A stretch of DNA of 64,000 bases from Acidobacteriota bacterium (GTDB lineage: Bacteria > Acidobacteriota > Blastocatellia > Pyrinomonadales > Pyrinomonadaceae). The DNA is taken from NCBI GenBank assembly GCA_025463135.1, contig JAOAPY010000016.1, positions 62,001 to 126,000 of the forward strand, in the 5' to 3' direction. The position numbers and the translations under genes were made by a program. The number at the start of each line of letters is the position of its first letter. Positions within the stretch are counted from its first letter, which is position 1. The notes below the pieces were generated by a model that worked only from the letters and a program-made list of their open reading frames with translations, did no database searches and was not told the DNA's origin. Below are positions 15,975 through 26,957 of the stretch, piece after piece.

Positions 15975-18236
15975 TCACGCTACCATCTCCAGCCGGGCAA
16001 CTTCAGCATGGTTCTCGCTCTGGGCGTTTTCTTCTTCATGCCGCCGGTCGTGATCGGCATCGATGAAAGCTGAGGCCGCCTCTGAATTCAGCGGTCGAGA
16101 GAAAAGATATCCCTGGGCGTATTCACATTTCAGCGCTTTCAAACAAGCGAGTTGATCTTCAGATTCGACGCCTTCGGCCACTACTTCCATGCCCAGATTG
16201 CGGGCGAGCGTGGCGATGGTCCTGACGATCTCGACGTTTTCGTCCTTCTCTTCAATCCGGTTGACAAACGAGCGATCGATCTTCAGCGTGTCGACCGGGA
16301 ACCGGTGCAGATAGCTGAGCGATGAATAGCCGGTGCCGAAATCGTCGATGCACAAGTGGACGTTCAAATCCGAAAGCTGCTTCAGCATGGTGGTTGCCAG
16401 TTCGGCATTTTCCATAACCACACTCTCTGTAATCTCCAGTTTCAGGCTGCGCGCCGGCAACTCGGTCTTCGCCAATATCGATTTAACTTCCTGGACCAGG
16501 CCTGACTGAATCAACTGTTTCGAAGAGAGATTCACGTTCATGGTGAGCGACCGGTTTGCCGGATGCTGGGTGTGCCATTCCTTCATCTGCCGGCAGGCGT
16601 TCTCGAGGATCCACGATCCCAAAGGAACGATCAATCCTGTTTCCTCCGCCACCGGTATGAATTCCGACGGAGCCACCAGGCCGCGCTCCGGATGTTGCCA
16701 ACGTACCAGGGCTTCAAAGCCTGAAAGCCTGGATGTCTCCACGCTCATTATGGGTTGATAGTAGAGACAGAACTCGTCTCGTTCGAGGGCCCGCCGCAGA
16801 TCGTTTTCCAGACGCATGCGAATCACTGCCCGCGAGTGCATCTCCAGATCAAACAACTCATAACAAGCCTTGCCCGCATCCTTTGCGCGATACATCGCCG
16901 TGTCGGCATCGCGCAGGATATAGTCCGGCTGATCATACCCGCCTGTGCTCAAAGCAATACCAATACTGGCCGAAGTGAATGCTTCGTGCCCACCCAGCTC
17001 GAAAGGCCGCAGGAGCTCCTGCTGGATTTTTTCCGCGACGCGTATGGCATCGCTGGGATCGCTGATGCCATCCAGGAGAATGGCAAACTCATCGCCGCCG
17101 AACCTCGAGACCGTATCGACCTGGCGCAGCGAAGACTGCAATCGGCGCGCGAGTTCTACAATCAGTTGGTCGCCGAAACTGTGACCCAGACTGTCATTGA
17201 TGTACTTAAAGCGATCCAGATCAAGAAATAACACCGCAAAGAGATAATCGGGTTGACGTTTGCTGCGCTCGATCGCCAACTTCAGGTAGTCCGAGAACAG
17301 GCTGCGATTCGGCAGATCCGTCAGCGAATCGTGGAAGGCTGCGTGACGAAAGTGTTCCTTGCTCTCCTGAAGCGCGCGACTGGTGCGCTCCAATTCTGAA
17401 ATGTAGTGGTTCAGTTCTTCGACGTGGCGTTCCGCCTGTTCCGCGCGCTGGGTTTCCGCATCGGCGCGGGCGCGTTCAGCTTCGGCCCGTTCGCGTTCTG
17501 CCAGCTCGGCCTGTGCCGCTGTCTTGCGAATGTCTTCGAGGTACTTCTGGTAGGTGAAGTAGAGAATCAGCACCATTGGCAGCGCGACGAGGACCACGTA
17601 GAGTCCCGAAGTCTCGATCCGCGTGGCGATAAAACCGGCGAGGATAGCGCCCGCAAAATAAGTCACTGAGGCCCAGATACAATTTCTGGTCCAGATTTGC
17701 CAGAACGGCTGGTCATGCTTGAACGACATGCCCAACGCCACCATGCCGGTATTGGTCAGGTATTGCGCCAGGGCCATCGCGCATATTCCCGCAGCCAGCA
17801 CCGAAAATGGTTGCCGAATCAATTGCATTGGTGGTCCGGCAATTAGCGACAGGGCTTGCACCGAGATCGAGGTCGAACAAGCCATCACCGCGGAGCTGAA
17901 CAGAATGGTGCGGACCTTCTTACCCGCGCGGGCGCCGGTAATCAAACCATCGGCAGCTGCGAGCAACACCGCCGCCTGACCCCCGTAGAGCAAAATTGCC
18001 AGAAATATGAAGGTGTCGGAAATCGTGACGCTCACGTTGAAGCGCGGAATCTTGACCGCCACGCGGGCGCTGACAATCAGGGTCAAAGCCGCTATCAGCA
18101 GAAAGCGAAGGTCGATCCGCTCGATCGGCAACCTTGGGATTTCAGAGAGAAACAATATCGAGCCCAGGCCAACGATCAACCATTGGTAGGTCATCGCTAC
18201 GCGTTGTTTTTCGTTTAGTTGTGTCGTGGCTTCCAC
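15975..18236 (-). CDS. Membrane-bound diguanylate cyclase / phosphodiesterase (GGDEF-EAL)
   Basis: 753 aa. Residues 15-230 contain about seven or eight hydrophobic segments, forming a membrane sensor domain that includes VTISDTFIFLAILLYGG. A coiled coil rich in Ala, Glu and Arg follows (235-290), then GGDEF (about 300-460) with an intact SRFGGDEFAI motif (G380-F384). The EAL domain (about 490-735) has EALVRW, NVNLSSKQ, ESVVMEN, CIDDFGTGYSSLSYL, KIDRSFV and AEGVE. Both halves look catalytically competent, so it could make and break cyclic-di-GMP. The signal sensed is unknown. It starts 12 bases after the GNAT gene stop, so the two form an operon. Confidence 0.93.
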   Translation of the reverse strand: MEATTQLNEKQRVAMTYQWLIVGLGSILFLSEIPRLPIERIDLRFLLIAALTLIVSARVAVKIPRFNVSVTISDTFIFLAILLYGGQAAVLLAAADGLITGARAGKKVRTILFSSAVMACSTSISVQALSLIAGPPMQLIRQPFSVLAAGICAMALAQYLTNTGMVALGMSFKHDQPFWQIWTRNCIWASVTYFAGAILAGFIATRIETSGLYVVLVALPMVLILYFTYQKYLEDIRKTAAQAELAERERAEAERARADAETQRAEQAERHVEELNHYISELERTSRALQESKEHFRHAAFHDSLTDLPNRSLFSDYLKLAIERSKRQPDYLFAVLFLDLDRFKYINDSLGHSFGDQLIVELARRLQSSLRQVDTVSRFGGDEFAILLDGISDPSDAIRVAEKIQQELLRPFELGGHEAFTSASIGIALSTGGYDQPDYILRDADTAMYRAKDAGKACYELFDLEMHSRAVIRMRLENDLRRALERDEFCLYYQPIMSVETSRLSGFEALVRWQHPERGLVAPSEFIPVAEETGLIVPLGSWILENACRQMKEWHTQHPANRSLTMNVNLSSKQLIQSGLVQEVKSILAKTELPARSLKLEITESVVMENAELATTMLKQLSDLNVHLCIDDFGTGYSSLSYLHRFPVDTLKIDRSFVNRIEEKDENVEIVRTIATLARNLGMEVVAEGVESEDQLACLKALKCEYAQGYLFSRPLNSEAASAFIDADHDRRHEEENAQSENHAEVARLEMVA

Positions 18237-18248
18237 GATTGCGGTTCC

Positions 18249-19160
18249 TTAGACTGCGGAAAAATAGGCGGTGTTGTAACAACTGCGGATTTGAAAACCC
18301 GTTCTCTGGTAAAAGGCTCGAGCGCGTTCGTTCTCTTCGTTGACGACCAGGCAAATCGATTGCACGCGGCCCAGAAGATTGCGCGCGAGTTGGGTCATAC
18401 AGCGCAGACCATAACCCTGGCGTCGCGCTTCCGGTTGCACGTACACACCCTCGATAAAAATAGCCTCAGGTGTTTCAGAGATGATGTCCGCTTTAAAGAC
18501 CATGCGGCCGTTTTGCACCAGCACCCAGATACGTCCTTGATCTACCCGTCGAGCGGTGCGGACCAACATTCCCGGTCGATCCAGCGACAAGGGGTTTATG
18601 CCGCTCTCTTCAAGACCGAGCGCGGCGTTGATCAAAACAATTGATTCGAAATCTTCGCGGCAGGCGAGACGCAATTGCGGCTCTCCGGCGACCCCGGAGA
18701 CGGCGGCTTTTTGCTCTAGAAGGAACTCGCCGCTTACCTGGCGCGGTGTGCGACCGGCCTCGGCGTACTTACTCAAGACGTATTCGATCTGTTCCTGTTC
18801 GCCTCTGATCAGGTGGCCCGTCAAATTGTCCGGCGTTAGAGAAGCAAAGACTTCCAGCGCCGCGTCGTTGCGCGCTTCGATAACAGTCTTGGGTCCAATC
18901 AGGGCCACACCCGTAAGTCGACCGCGCCGGTCGCGACATCCATAAAAAGTTCCGCGATTGGCAACATTTACGAGGCCATTGTCGCGAATCAGGCCGGACA
19001 TGAACACGGTGTGGATTGGTCGTTGGGCCAGAAAGGCGAGCACTTCATCCTGGTGGCCGCCCGACAACGCGTGCACTCTCAGTGAGCTCGGCGGCGTTTT
19101 ACTTAACGATAGCTGCGGCGTGCTGCCTTCGGTCTCGGCAAGTGCGAATGCGGATGACAT
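18249..19160 (-). CDS. GNAT acetyltransferase with N-terminal DUF4081-like domain
   Basis: 303 aa. The first half (about 30-145) reads as a GNAT-like DUF4081 domain (LAFLAQRPIHTVFMSGLIRDNG, FYGCRDRRGRLTGVALIG). The second half (about 165-300) is a standard GNAT fold: the acetyl-CoA loop IEGVYVQPEARRQGYGLRCM is in the Q/RxxGxG/A region, and CLVVNEENERARAFYQRTGF completes it. Substrate unknown. It is probably co-transcribed with the downstream GGDEF-EAL gene. Confidence 0.85.
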   Translation of the reverse strand: MSSAFALAETEGSTPQLSLSKTPPSSLRVHALSGGHQDEVLAFLAQRPIHTVFMSGLIRDNGLVNVANRGTFYGCRDRRGRLTGVALIGPKTVIEARNDAALEVFASLTPDNLTGHLIRGEQEQIEYVLSKYAEAGRTPRQVSGEFLLEQKAAVSGVAGEPQLRLACREDFESIVLINAALGLEESGINPLSLDRPGMLVRTARRVDQGRIWVLVQNGRMVFKADIISETPEAIFIEGVYVQPEARRQGYGLRCMTQLARNLLGRVQSICLVVNEENERARAFYQRTGFQIRSCYNTAYFSAV

Positions 19161-19241: not shown

Positions 19242-21869
19242 TCAGTGCATGCAGGGAGAGTCATCCCCGCCGATTAGGGCTCGCGAGGACATGGCCTGAA
19301 CATAAGCGTCACCCATGACGATGCCATCACTTACCATGATGCCGTCACCCATGACCAGCCCGTCGCCGACCATGATGCCATCGCTGACCATGATGCCGTC
19401 GCCGGCCAGTTGGCCACCAGGCAGGAACAACACACCATCACCCATGACTAAGCCATCGCTGGTCATGATCGTGTCACCCATGACGATGCCATCACTGACC
19501 ATGATGCCGTCGCTGACCATGATGCCGTCGCCGGCTACATCGGCGTCACCCATCACGATGCCCAAACCATAGATTGGCTGGTACTTCATGATCAGGTTGG
19601 TTCCGGTCAGGTAGCCGTACTTCGTGACTATCCCTCGCGACCAGCTAAAGGTCTGGCCGCCAATCGTCGTTTGCGGATTCGGCATGGTGGTAGTGGTTAA
19701 GAAATTCGAGCCGGGTGCGGTTGAATTTGTCAGATCCGTGCGGACCAGTTTGGCTACGCGCATTGCGCCTTCGACATTTACTTCACCGGCGCCCTGTTCA
19801 AGCAGGTTGAAGTGTGCAAGTGGTTGGGCTGTGTACATCAAGATAGCCTTTACCATGTTAGGCGTCAGCTTGGGATTGGCCTGGAGCAAGAGAGCGACCG
19901 TGCCCGCGACTACCGGTGTCGCCATTGATGTACCGCTCAGGTACATCAACTTCTTGTTGTCATCATCGGTAAGACCTGAGTCCAATTCCGGGTGTAGAGT
20001 GACAAGAAGGTTGTCTGCGTGGCCCATGTCCGACTCGGCGTAGATGAGCTTGTTACCTGGCGCCACTAGATCTGGTTTGACGATGTTGTCATAGTCTTTG
20101 ACACCGTTGGCGTCAGTTGTGTAGCTGCGTGTTGGTCCACGCGAACTGTAAGTCGCAATACCGTCATCGTTCCGGCCGGTCGTTGCGAAGGTATTGGAAG
20201 CGCCAACCGTAATCACCGATGGCTCGTTGCCCGGCGAATGAATTTGACCGTAAATCTTGGTGCCGTTAGCGTCTTTGCCATTGTTGCCGGCGGCGGCAAC
20301 GACAACCAAACCCGCATCAACAAGGGCGCGCGCGGCGCGACAGATTGGGTCGTTTTTATAAGAGCTCACGGCGGGCGCGCCCAGACTCATGTTGACAACG
20401 CGGATGCCGTACTTGTCTTTGTTCAGGGGGTTGGCCGAGCTTACGGCTTTGGTTGGATCAGACGGAGCTAGAAACCAATTCAAAGCACTAAGCAGAACGG
20501 CGCTGCTACCCGTACCCTGCGAGTTTAAGACCCGCAAATTAATGATGCTGGCGCCTGGCGCAACGCCGTCGTAGGCGTCGCCATTTTTTGTGCTGGTGCC
20601 GCCGGCGGTAGAAGCAACGTGGCTGCCATGACCGAAGGGATCCGAAGATGAATTGTTTTCAGTCGTGAAATCCTTGCTGTACTTGATTCCCTGTTTGAAA
20701 GCCCGGTGTCCCGTGTCAATACCAGAGTCCAGTATCGCAATGCCGATGCCCGCGCCATCAAAGGTGGTGGTGCTGCAGATGAGGCCAAGCAGACAGCTGT
20801 TGGTGACGGTTCGGATCAAGTCTGTGCCGGTCGTAGCAGTCACGTGGCCGAGTGTTTTCATCGTCACGTTCGGCGACATAAAGTCGGCCAGACCACTTTG
20901 GGCCAGCTTGGAAACTGCCTTGACTGGAATCTGAACCTTCATGGAGCTGATTTCCGACATGCGGTCGGTAACCAGTACGCCATTTCGTTTCAACATGGTT
21001 GCCAATTCTGCGTTACGAACATCCGGAGTCTGCAATATGACATCCAGGCGATCGTTTTCTGACTTCGCAGCCTGCATCAATTCGCGCAAGTCGCTGGAAA
21101 TCGTTTCCCCGACGAAGCCGCGATCTTCCCTTGTTTCACCGGCCTTAGCGGTTGCCGAATCTTTCGCATCCGTTTCGCCGAGGCGCACCGTCTGAAATAA
21201 TTTGGCAAGCGATTCGTCACCGGCGATGTAAGTCGCATAAGTCTCGCTGGTCGCGGCGCCGATTATCTGGAATTGACCGGCGGCGAGCGCCTGGCGTATC
21301 GAAGCCGACGCCTCAGGGTGCGCATAGTTGCCGGCAAACTGGTGAAGCTGATCCACAAAGAGCAGGATCTGGCCTTTGGCAGCCGCGGCTTCACTCAGCA
21401 CCGCTTGCAGGCGAGCAACGAATTCATTGCTGTCTTTCGCGCCTGCTGCCAGTTTGTTGAGACTCAGACTAAATACTTGTTTGTCTTCCAGGTTAGCCGG
21501 CACGTGACGAGCGACGATTCTGCGAGCCAGGCCGCGAGCTATGTCAGCGACATCCGCGGCATTGCCTTCGCCGGCATCACCAATAAGGAGCGGGTTGCGT
21601 TCGGTATTCTCTGAAAGAATCTTCACGACCCGATTCAGTTCCGCCTTATGGTTTGTGTTTACTTCGAGACGCCCCTGTCGTGCCAAACCAGTCAGATCAA
21701 CGGCAAAGCGCGACAACGCGGGATGACTGGCCTTTTGCTCTGCATCCTGCTTCGCTCTTCCGTTCGGATCCGAGTTGGCAATGCTGCGCAGGGGGCTGGC
21801 AAGCATTGAGACCGACAGCGCTAAGCTTGTCAGCCATACGATCGTTGGGGTTTGTTTGGTTGTTCGCAT
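19242..21869 (-). CDS. Secreted subtilisin-like peptidase fused to a degenerate ClpB-type AAA domain
   Basis: 875 aa. Signal peptide at residues 10-32. Residues 50-230 align throughout with the first AAA module of ClpB/ClpC: ALSRFAVDLTGLARQGRLEV, VVKILSENTERNPLLIGDAG, a Walker A position reading GDAGEGNA (97-104, Lys and Thr lost), Walker B LLFVDQLHQ (Glu lost), GAATSETYATYIAGDESLAK, and the arginine-finger pair replaced by Lys223-Leu224. Residues 255-350 look like a pro-region. The S8 domain (370-705) has Asp381 (AILDSGID), His414 (GHGSHVAS), Asn529 (AAAGNN) and Ser648 (SGTSMATP), so it should be active. Residues 765-857 hold two blocks of DG-containing hexapeptide repeats. The AAA part presumably serves a structural or binding role, since ATP is lacking outside the cell. 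A stand-alone gene. Confidence 0.9.
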   Translation of the reverse strand: MRTTKQTPTIVWLTSLALSVSMLASPLRSIANSDPNGRAKQDAEQKASHPALSRFAVDLTGLARQGRLEVNTNHKAELNRVVKILSENTERNPLLIGDAGEGNAADVADIARGLARRIVARHVPANLEDKQVFSLSLNKLAAGAKDSNEFVARLQAVLSEAAAAKGQILLFVDQLHQFAGNYAHPEASASIRQALAAGQFQIIGAATSETYATYIAGDESLAKLFQTVRLGETDAKDSATAKAGETREDRGFVGETISSDLRELMQAAKSENDRLDVILQTPDVRNAELATMLKRNGVLVTDRMSEISSMKVQIPVKAVSKLAQSGLADFMSPNVTMKTLGHVTATTGTDLIRTVTNSCLLGLICSTTTFDGAGIGIAILDSGIDTGHRAFKQGIKYSKDFTTENNSSSDPFGHGSHVASTAGGTSTKNGDAYDGVAPGASIINLRVLNSQGTGSSAVLLSALNWFLAPSDPTKAVSSANPLNKDKYGIRVVNMSLGAPAVSSYKNDPICRAARALVDAGLVVVAAAGNNGKDANGTKIYGQIHSPGNEPSVITVGASNTFATTGRNDDGIATYSSRGPTRSYTTDANGVKDYDNIVKPDLVAPGNKLIYAESDMGHADNLLVTLHPELDSGLTDDDNKKLMYLSGTSMATPVVAGTVALLLQANPKLTPNMVKAILMYTAQPLAHFNLLEQGAGEVNVEGAMRVAKLVRTDLTNSTAPGSNFLTTTTMPNPQTTIGGQTFSWSRGIVTKYGYLTGTNLIMKYQPIYGLGIVMGDADVAGDGIMVSDGIMVSDGIVMGDTIMTSDGLVMGDGVLFLPGGQLAGDGIMVSDGIMVGDGLVMGDGIMVSDGIVMGDAYVQAMSSRALIGGDDSPCMH
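19299..19577 (-). repeat. Coding tandem repeats, (D-G-I-M-V-S)n type
   Basis: The 3' part of the S8 peptidase gene is built of 18-base units encoding hexapeptides of the form D-G-[IL]-[MV]-[VM]-[SG], in two blocks of about five, separated by VLFLPGGQLA. The DNA units (for example ATGATGCCATCACTGACC on the plus strand) are nearly identical, which suggests recent expansion. Confidence 0.85.
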
Positions 21870-22134
21870 TGTTAAATATTCCTCTGAGTGGGGGCCACTG
21901 GGACTTGCTTAAGCTGACCACCTTATGTTCGTTTCTGTCTTACCTCTTTCAAATTCCGCTCTCGTGGGCTTTACACCCAGTTCGACTCGCTTCCTCCTTG
22001 GCGAGGCGCATGCCAAACCTGAAGAACGCGCAACTCATTCTAAATAACGGCGTTAGAGGAAATGCTGCGCTTCTGGCCAAAGGTCAAACTGATGGTGATC
22101 AGTCATCTTGCTGACTGACCGATTCATTTTGAAC

Positions 22135-24785: not shown

Positions 24786-26957
24786 CTACATCTTCAGCTC
24801 GCGCACCAGAAAGCCCCAGCGATCGGCCAGCTCTTCGATGATCTTCGTGGTCGGTTTACCGGCGCCGTGGCCGGCTTTGGTTTCGATGCGAATCAAAACC
24901 GGCGCCGGACCTGCCTGGGCGGCCTGCAACGTAGCGGCAAACTTAAAACTGTGTCCGGGCCAGACGCGATCGTCGTGGTCCGCCGTGGTCACCATCGTCG
25001 GCGGATAAGCCTTGCCTGACTTGATGTTGTGCAGTGGCGAATACGCGTACTGGATCTTGAAATCATCGGCGTTATCCGACGAGCCGTAATCTGAAACCCA
25101 GGCCCAACCGATCGTGAACCTCTGAAAACGCAGCATGTCCATCACGCCCACGCCCGGCAATGTCGCTCCGAACAAATCCGGTCGCTGAGTCAGGACCGCA
25201 CCCACCAGCAGACCGCCGTTGCTGTCGCCGCCGATGGCCAGTTTAGGCGTCGAAGTGTACTTATTCGTAATCAACCACTCGGCCGCAGCGATAAAATCGT
25301 CGAACACATTTTGTTTCTTCGCTTTCATACCCGCCTGGTGCCAGTCTTCGCCATACTCGCCACCGCCGCGCAGATTTGGCTGGGCATAAATTCCGCCCAT
25401 CTCCATCCAAACCAAATCGCCGACAGAGAAAACCGGTGTCAGAGAAATGTCAAAACCGCCGTAGCCGTAAAGATAAGTCGGATTTTGGCCGTCAAGCTTC
25501 AGCCCTCTCTTATAGGTAAGAAACATCGGCACCCGCGTACCGTCTTTGCTGTTGTAGAAAACCTGTTTCGTTTCATAGTCGCCGGGATTGAAGTCGACCT
25601 TGGGCTGGCGAAAGATCGTGCTCTTCCCGGTCACCATGTCATAGCGATAGATGGTCGTCGGCATGGTAAAGCCCGTGAAGGCGTAAAAGGTCTCTTTATC
25701 TTTCGCTTTGCCGGCAAAACCGCTCGCGGTGCCAAGTGTCGGAAATTCAACTTCGCGCACAAACTTGCCGGTTTTGTCGAAAACCTTTACCTGTGTATGC
25801 GCGTCTTTCAGATAGCTGGCGACGAACATATTGTTGATGAAGCTGACGCCCTGCAGAGTCTCTGCCGCTTCGGGCACGAGTACTTTCCAGTTGGCGCGTT
25901 CAGGCTTGCGCGTATCGATGGCAATGATCTTGCTGCGCGGCGCGCCCAGATCCGTTTGGAACCAGAAGATTGGTCCATCGTTATCAATAAAGGTGTACGC
26001 TGCGTCAAAGTCGTCGAGCAACTTGACCACTGGCGAATTCTTCGCCGTGTAGTCCTTATAATAAACGCGCGTCTTGACGTCGGTGCCTTCGTTAATGTTG
26101 ATAATCAGGTAACGCCAGTCGAGCGTGGCGGTGGCGCCAAAGAGCCATTCCTTTTGATCGGGGCGCTCGTACATCAAAATATCTGCCGACTGCGCGGTGC
26201 CCAAACGATGGTAGTAGACTTTTTGGAAATAATTGGTGCCTTTCAGTGTGTCGTCCTTCGGTTCGTCGTAGCGGCTGTAAAAAAAGCCTCTGCTATCGGG
26301 CGACCACGACGCGCCTGAGAACTTGACCCACTTGAGATCGTCGGTTAGATCCTTGCCGGTCTCGACGTCGCGAACTTTCCATTCCTGCCAGTCGGAGCCT
26401 GAAGCCGAGAGGCTGTAAGCCAGCAACTTGCCGTCTTCGCTCGGCACTAAACCTGACAGGGCGACGGTGCCGTCCGTCGAGAGCGTGTTGGGATCGAGCA
26501 GCAACGTGGGCTCGTCAGTAAGGGAGGTCACGCTGTAGTAGACGCTTTGGTTTTGCAGCCCACTATTGCGCGAATAGAAGTAACGGCCACCTTCCTTGAA
26601 AGGCGCGCTGAAGCGCTCATAGTTCCAGAGTTTGGTCAGACGTTCGCGGATCTTTGCGCGCGCCGGGATCTCGTTGAGGTAACTAAAGGTCAGTTTGTTT
26701 TCTGCCTCAACCCAGGCCTTTTTCTCGCTGGAATCGAGGTCTTCGAGCCAACGGTATGGATCGGCGACCTTGACGCCATGATAGTCGTCGGTCTGTCCGC
26801 TCTTGCGGGCCGGTGGATATGTCGTCGGGTTAATCATCTTTTGATTGGAAGTTAGATTCTGCGCGCGCGCCGGCGAGTGGGTCAGCACGCTAATAGAGGC
26901 AACTGCGATTAGGAACACCAGCAGGCGCAGGCTACGGACATTCTTCGAGACAGGCAT
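24786..26957 (-). CDS. Secreted prolyl oligopeptidase (S9A)
   Basis: 723 aa. Signal peptide at about residues 1-33 (LLVFLIAVASISVLTHSPARAQ). An N-terminal region YHGVKVADPYRWLED and a seven-bladed propeller (about 100-440) precede the C-terminal hydrolase. The catalytic triad is Ser579 in GGDSNGGLLVGA, Asp in TADHDDRVWPGHS and His in KAGHGAGKPT. Cuts short proline-containing peptides; located in the periplasm or outside. AAGGAG lies just before the ATG. It is consistent with other secreted peptidases in the window and with the nearby amino-acid-type importer. Confidence 0.95.
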   Translation of the reverse strand: MPVSKNVRSLRLLVFLIAVASISVLTHSPARAQNLTSNQKMINPTTYPPARKSGQTDDYHGVKVADPYRWLEDLDSSEKKAWVEAENKLTFSYLNEIPARAKIRERLTKLWNYERFSAPFKEGGRYFYSRNSGLQNQSVYYSVTSLTDEPTLLLDPNTLSTDGTVALSGLVPSEDGKLLAYSLSASGSDWQEWKVRDVETGKDLTDDLKWVKFSGASWSPDSRGFFYSRYDEPKDDTLKGTNYFQKVYYHRLGTAQSADILMYERPDQKEWLFGATATLDWRYLIININEGTDVKTRVYYKDYTAKNSPVVKLLDDFDAAYTFIDNDGPIFWFQTDLGAPRSKIIAIDTRKPERANWKVLVPEAAETLQGVSFINNMFVASYLKDAHTQVKVFDKTGKFVREVEFPTLGTASGFAGKAKDKETFYAFTGFTMPTTIYRYDMVTGKSTIFRQPKVDFNPGDYETKQVFYNSKDGTRVPMFLTYKRGLKLDGQNPTYLYGYGGFDISLTPVFSVGDLVWMEMGGIYAQPNLRGGGEYGEDWHQAGMKAKKQNVFDDFIAAAEWLITNKYTSTPKLAIGGDSNGGLLVGAVLTQRPDLFGATLPGVGVMDMLRFQRFTIGWAWVSDYGSSDNADDFKIQYAYSPLHNIKSGKAYPPTMVTTADHDDRVWPGHSFKFAATLQAAQAGPAPVLIRIETKAGHGAGKPTTKIIEELADRWGFLVRELKM

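Follow-up and report, generated by a model that had tools for sequence, protein, structure and literature searches.

One gene of the window (the whole stretch of 64,000 nucleotides from an Acidobacteriota genome that was analysed here) encodes a putatively exported S8 peptidase in which a ClpB-derived AAA+ domain, stripped of its ATPase residues, stands ahead of an I9-type propeptide. A preliminary description made from the sequence presented the fusion as a single unusual protein; the protein is real, but its company was understated, as distinct fusions of this kind number at least 72. The module is perhaps best understood as a captured piece of ClpB D1 that now acts without ATP as an exchangeable extra part of the zymogen pro-region, a reading to which we give a probability of just under one half. 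The make-up had been called undescribed, and no published account of it was found in the open-licence literature, as judged from listings and the openings of abstracts.

Organization of the gene and protein

The domains of the 875-residue protein and its downstream neighbours are listed in Table 1. An AGAGGA motif lies 10 bases 5' of the start codon (complement of positions 21880-21885). The predicted export signal, also proposed in the preliminary description, is a hydrophobic window by the Kyte-Doolittle (KD) scale, and the signal peptides of all fusions were called by this window only; such a window was detected in 71 of the 72 fusions, and the remaining one (L047) is truncated at the edge of its contig.

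Table 1. Features of the fusion gene and its conserved neighbours, in positions of the window
Feature	Position	Strand	Residues and basis
Whole gene: exported S8 peptidase (predicted) with dead ClpB D1 module	19242..21869	-	875 aa, ATG start
Signal-peptide-like N-terminus	21777..21869	-	~1-31; hydrophobic 12-residue window, KD mean 1.85 from residue 9
Dead ClpB D1 large subdomain	21174..21737	-	~45-232; TIGR03346, isolated model, 1jbk
Former Walker A, GDAGEGNA	21558..21581	-	97-104
Former pore loop 1, KDSN in place of KYRG	21426..21437	-	145-148
Former Walker B, FVDQ	21348..21359	-	171-174
Former arginine-finger pair, KLF	21195..21203	-	223-225
I9-type propeptide domain	20850..21098	-	~258-340; model secondary structure, 3afg and 3whi alignments
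S8 catalytic domain	19743..20849	-	~341-709; PF00082; subtilisin structures align from model residue 345
Catalytic Asp381	20727..20729	-	invariant
Catalytic His414	20628..20630	-	invariant
Catalytic Ser648	19926..19928	-	invariant
C-terminal repeat tail	19290..19562	-	770-860; six-residue units, GDGIMV type
GNAT acetyltransferase, next downstream	18249..19160	-	Pfam; conserved neighbour
GGDEF-EAL protein, after the GNAT gene	15975..18236	-	Pfam EAL 2.6e-82, GGDEF 2.7e-48; conserved neighbour

Homology and predicted fold of the ClpB-derived module

Residues 50-230 had been assigned to a ClpB D1 module, and the profile search, the structure prediction with superposition on ClpB D1 and the survey of lost residues that the preliminary description proposed all uphold its account of a dead ClpB domain. 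In the profile search, residues 36-239 matched the NCBIfam ClpB profile TIGR03346 (E 5.8e-44, profile positions 140-342 of 853), with ClpV (3e-38) and ClpA (2.6e-36) behind it. All Clp matches lie below the whole-protein cut-offs because the protein contains one subdomain only. This is the large subdomain of D1, the sole ClpB part present; the N-domain, D1 small subdomain, M-domain and D2 are absent, since the TIGR03346 match ends at position 342 of 853 and is followed by I9 and S8. The ClpB of the same genome aligned with residues 38-242 at 40% identity (BLAST, 5.2e-38). In the Pfam search of the protein, S8 alone was above cut-off, and the only AAA match was AAA_16 at 0.011, below it; general annotation therefore overlooks the dead ClpB domain. 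Thus the module matches AAA proteins above background in the NCBIfam search, in BLAST with the ClpB of the same genome and in structure, though Pfam misses it.

When residues 38-250 were modelled alone (20 sequences), the model reached pLDDT 90.2 and pTM 0.84, and Clp/Hsp104 D1 domains ranked at the top in comparisons with Foldseek and VIA-align. The crystal structure of ClpB NBD1 (1jbk) aligned with residues 48-235 of the protein at Z 27.3 (181 aligned residues, rmsd 2.5, 36% identity). In the Clp tree the fusion modules formed one clade on the ClpB side (SH-aLRT 99, and 99.9 in a smaller set), apart from ClpC save for one odd row, although the long module branches might help to group them together. 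The best ClpB was also nearer than the best ClpC for 71 of 72 modules, a comparison that favours ClpB as it was made with 28 ClpB and 6 ClpC-type rows. The tree is the better evidence for ClpB kinship. The module is not counted as a member of ClpB, because the defining features of ClpB were looked for and are missing from it.

Loss of ATPase and threading residues

All replacements named in the preliminary description are present in the sequence. The former P-loop GDAGEGNA has neither the Lys nor the Thr, and its helix is four residues longer than in ClpB; FVDQ retains the Walker B Asp but has Gln for Glu; and the arginine-finger site reads KLF. In addition to these, the pore loop KYRG has become KDSN. 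None of the 72 fusions has a G4xGK[ST] P-loop. In ClpB controls that were picked by a fusion-only profile, without use of the motif, the P-loop Gly, Lys and Thr were found in 30/30, as were the Walker B DE and both arginines. The Lys position of the P-loop is occupied most often in the fusions by Gln (27) or Arg (25), and in three cases by Lys. Walker B DE is retained in 14/72; the first arginine-finger site is R in 3/72 and the second in 10/72, with both together in none; a pore-loop aromatic residue (Tyr/Phe) occurs in 0/72. The Phe past the arginine fingers is kept in 66/72. Partial remnants can be seen in L013 (GETGVGKAA), L017 (GETPYGKAS) and L002 (GFGRS, with Walker B DE), and many stages of decay coexist, as some members have not lost the P-loop Lys or have not lost Walker B DE.

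In 18 less diverged fusions, the median retention of the ATPase and pore columns was 0.17, compared with 0.33 for the remaining ClpB-invariant columns (one-sided p 0.025, with hand-picked columns). Among 116 columns nearly invariant in ClpB, 22 are retained in at least 60% of the fusions. Both column analyses used 28 ClpB domains cut out via the Walker A pattern. A new consensus among the fusions appears in one column only, Ala at 119, so that no common new site is visible. Sequence comparison and modelling together indicate that ATP chemistry is gone in every fusion examined while the fold is predicted to be intact. The suggestion that the fold was kept for peptide binding or oligomerization is weakened by these results: the pore-loop Tyr is lost in 72/72, the arginine pair survives in 0/72, and no new common site has taken their place.

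Propeptide, protease and tail

The full-length model (pLDDT 71.9, pTM 0.60) allows no usable statement on interdomain contacts. Between the AAA module and the S8 domain it contains a beta-alpha-beta-beta-alpha-beta fold of the propeptide kind (elements 274-333). Pro-subtilisin E (3whi) aligns with model residues 273-704 with Z 35.0, and Tk-SP with its propeptide (3afg) matches residues 251-762 with Z 39.5 and 33% identity. Mature subtilisin structures begin to align only at model residue 345, beyond both the I9 fold and the AAA module. Pfam I9 gave no match in this protein at E up to 1; the model topology and the alignments with pro-subtilisin structures identify the propeptide as I9-type. The earlier proposal that the AAA fold is itself the prodomain overlooked the separate propeptide, and the module is an extra piece ahead of this propeptide rather than the propeptide itself. 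As the module precedes a complete unit of propeptide and protease, normal subtilisin maturation would be expected to remove both.

The PF00082 match of the protein (6.5e-49) scores 167.2 bits against a cut-off of 21.8. The catalytic triad, already described as intact, is invariant in 24/24 aligned fusions and in 35/35 aligned family members, a set that includes 23 fusions; G341 and H342 are likewise invariant in the 35. The protein as a whole belongs by sequence to S8, and proteolytic activity is predicted; self-cleavage would occur at the propeptide end, near residue 340. The tail is made of units such as GDGVVL, GDGIMV and SDGVLV and is common to fusion and AAA-free proteases. Its DNA has periods of 18 and 36 bases. 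The hexapeptide units resemble those of left-handed beta-helices, but the model carries no confidence in this region (pLDDT <50).

Distribution of the fusions

The whole protein found matches at E <=1e-60 in 105 of 119 genomes of the same order, and fusions are present in at least 74 of the 119; the 72 distinct fusions were taken from among the matches listed. The best 80 relatives in a scan with names bear the titles Pyrinomonadaceae, Blastocatellia, Chloracidobacterium or Acidobacteria, and 22 of them have the fusion. A search of 396 genomes of the phylum at E <=1e-65 gave matches in 23, all of the same family; 28 of the 396 belong to this family by listing order, and none of the other 368 has a match at that threshold, which also misses weak fusions within the family (for example G111, at 1.5e-65). 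In a search of the class at E <=1e-50, every row among the matches listed that reaches the profile end is of the same family, and the best E values of other genomes lie within the range of ClpB. As far as sequences and trees can tell, the capture took place in the lineage leading to this family of bacteria.

The genome of the window also encodes another fusion (L002), along with a paralogue that lacks the AAA module (L003) and the ordinary Clp proteins L004-L006. Other contexts of the dead domain were sought among 48 rows in 8 genomes, mostly judged by frame length; seven stretches of these were read and contained one further fusion, five full Clp proteins with an intact P-loop and one broken Clp gene. 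In genome G056 a Clp-type D1 domain is split over two short frames (L207, 2119-2681). In L160 the AAA module and the S8 domain lie in different frames, and the second fusion of G021 (G021:C737:230-2665) has two in-frame TGA codons; both were left out of the fusion set.

Gene neighbourhood

GNAT and/or GGDEF-EAL genes are found downstream of 61/71 fusions and of 42/73 AAA-free members (duplicates merged, at least 1300 bases of room; unmerged counts were 73/83 and 44/77, with one fusion misfiled). These conserved neighbours were considered as a clue specific to the module and rejected as such, since they also follow the 42 AAA-free members. The cluster, occurring with or without the module, belongs to the protease family, and it may point to regulation of the exported proteases by cyclic di-GMP.

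A prolyl oligopeptidase gene lies near the fusion gene in the window (24786-26957, minus strand). In one branch of fusions (L029, L034, L050, L061 and others), the protease gene has a prolyl oligopeptidase gene ahead of it in the same orientation, and there is no GNAT gene. An ordinary ClpC-type ATPase gene on the opposite strand is located near four fusions (L091 1970-4348, L094 9434-11818, L096 1630-4071 and L098 1715-4096).

Selection and probable exchange of the module

Among the 40 closest pairs, a set that contains repeated records and shared sequences, the median dN/dS was 0.195 for AAA (24 pairs with usable dS), 0.17 for I9 (27) and 0.09 for S8 (26). For pairs with AAA dS <1, with repeats merged, the AAA values were 0.27, 0.30, 0.34, 0.09, 0.21 and 0.10. 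Purifying selection on the module is evident from these sequence comparisons. The module is also the fastest-evolving of the domains measured: at an S8 identity of 0.5-0.6 (3097 pairs), mean identity was 0.26 for AAA, 0.36 for I9 and 0.56 for S8.

Carriers of the module are scattered over the S8 tree, with at least 14 changes of state, or at least 12 when six uncertain rows are left out, and their grouping as a single clade was rejected (p-AU 0.0011). The module is absent in 75 of the 154 S8-tree rows of known state, despite the same I9 and S8 domains; such AAA-free relatives mean that it is not generally needed for these enzymes. The AAA tree rejected an S8 clade of 10 (p-AU 0.003), and the S8 tree rejected two AAA groups (p-AU 2.7e-8 and 0.0013), the latter result being the weaker evidence because the groups were named after the AAA tree had been viewed and one has a support of just 73-85. 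This disagreement between the histories of module and protease makes exchange among paralogues likely besides loss. On the sequence evidence, use of the module is both optional and exchangeable among protease paralogues.

The AAA module appears to be linked more closely with I9 than with S8. Over 79 fusions the Spearman correlation was 0.53 for AAA-I9 and 0.38 for AAA-S8, and the partial correlation given S8 was 0.42 for AAA-I9, compared with 0.18 between AAA and the domain that follows S8; the 500 permutations behind this linkage ignore relatedness. A shared recombination history of neighbouring domains could alone yield the correlation.

Possible role of the module

As far as sequences and trees can tell, a single capture placed the coding stretch of a ClpB D1 large subdomain in the gene of an exported S8 protease, between its signal peptide and its I9 propeptide. 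By sequence and prediction, the ATPase and threading residues were then lost and the fold retained. The module may then fold as a single domain beside the propeptide and help the exported chain to reach or hold a folded, still silent state. Self-cleavage near residue 340 would finally shed the module along with the propeptide. This pro-region reading draws on the position of the module, its fold homology, the loss of the ATPase, the dN/dS values, the linkage with I9 and the modularity; the many AAA-free relatives, the want of a uniting new site and the fastest divergence count against it. The optional, exchangeable use suggests that the module may tune folding, latency or partner for each enzyme and is not an essential step. 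It is a more doubtful proposition that these proteins represent a new class of zymogen pro-module, in which an unfoldase domain stripped of ATP use was exapted outside the cytosol as an intramolecular chaperone or latency cap traded between protease paralogues.

Two other explanations are each unlikely, and to the same degree. The module may stay on the working enzyme, or be released by a cut between AAA and I9, and serve as a lineage-specific domain that binds a substrate, a surface or another protein. Rapid divergence and exchange among paralogues fit such a role, and the D1 large subdomain has been crystallized by itself (1jbk); the location of the module before the I9 fold, however, predicts removal upon activation, no common new conserved site is visible, and the pore-loop Tyr is lost in 72/72. 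Alternatively, the module may be a tolerated passenger. It would then owe its capture to chance and its retention to the minimal demand that an exported domain be able to fold, and it could be freely lost again. Its repeated absence across the S8 tree and its standing as the fastest domain measured, with no new conserved site, agree with this. But its frame has stayed open in 72 distinct fusions, and at least 74 of 119 genomes carry it, with dN/dS of 0.08-0.36 and a fold predicted to be intact; in 18 less diverged fusions the ATPase and pore columns have been lost beyond the other ClpB-invariant columns (0.17 and 0.33, one-sided p 0.025, columns hand-picked).

A role before export is improbable. 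Here the module would pair in the cytosol with a Clp ring, either that of the cell's ClpB or a different one, in the manner of LAP1 and Torsin, so that the precursor is kept fit for export or held back. Sec export requires an unfolded substrate, which argues against such pairing, and both arginines together occur in none of the 72 fusions. ClpB is indeed the nearest of the Clp families, and LAP1 offers a precedent of an AAA+ fold that lacks nucleotide motifs and acts as partner to an AAA+ ATPase, but LAP1 is reported to retain its arginine finger (PMC4358337). Residual nucleotide binding or hydrolysis in some members is very improbable, for the partial motifs of L013, L017 and L002 and the Walker B DE of 14/72 stand against G4xGK[ST] in 0/72, the missing arginine fingers and the little ATP expected outside the cytosol.

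Whatever its role, the module is a natural case of an AAA+ domain that was kept and spread after loss of its ATPase. The fusions open a route to asking what the ClpB D1 fold does without ATP, and they bear on whether the pro-regions of proteases can recruit chaperone domains.

Comparison with known systems

The likeness to ClpB/Hsp104 NBD1 (1jbk) lies in the fold and sequence of the D1 large subdomain and in an adjoining clade. The module differs from ClpB/Hsp104 in standing without the N-domain, D1 small subdomain, M-domain and D2, in having lost the P-loop, Walker B Glu, pore loop and arginine fingers, and in being fused to a protease and, by prediction, exported.

LAP1 and LULL1, activators of Torsin, have an AAA+ fold devoid of nucleotide-binding motifs and reside in a compartment other than the cytosol; LAP1 is reported to retain an arginine finger and to activate its partner ATPase (PMC4358337). 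By analogy, LAP1 sets a precedent for an AAA+ fold that does without nucleotide outside the cytosol. The fusion architecture is unrelated to that of LAP1 and LULL1, and the arginine-finger site in the protein of the window reads KLF.

With Tk-SP and other subtilisin-type S8 zymogens (3afg, 3whi), the protein shares an I9-type propeptide, an S8 domain and a further C-terminal domain; it adds the ClpB-derived domain before the propeptide and a terminal tail of GDG repeats. The AAA-free S8 paralogues of these bacteria have the same I9, S8 and repeat tail, and GNAT and GGDEF-EAL genes often adjoin them too, but they have no ClpB module. The one in the same genome (L003) is 54% identical over residues 244-874.
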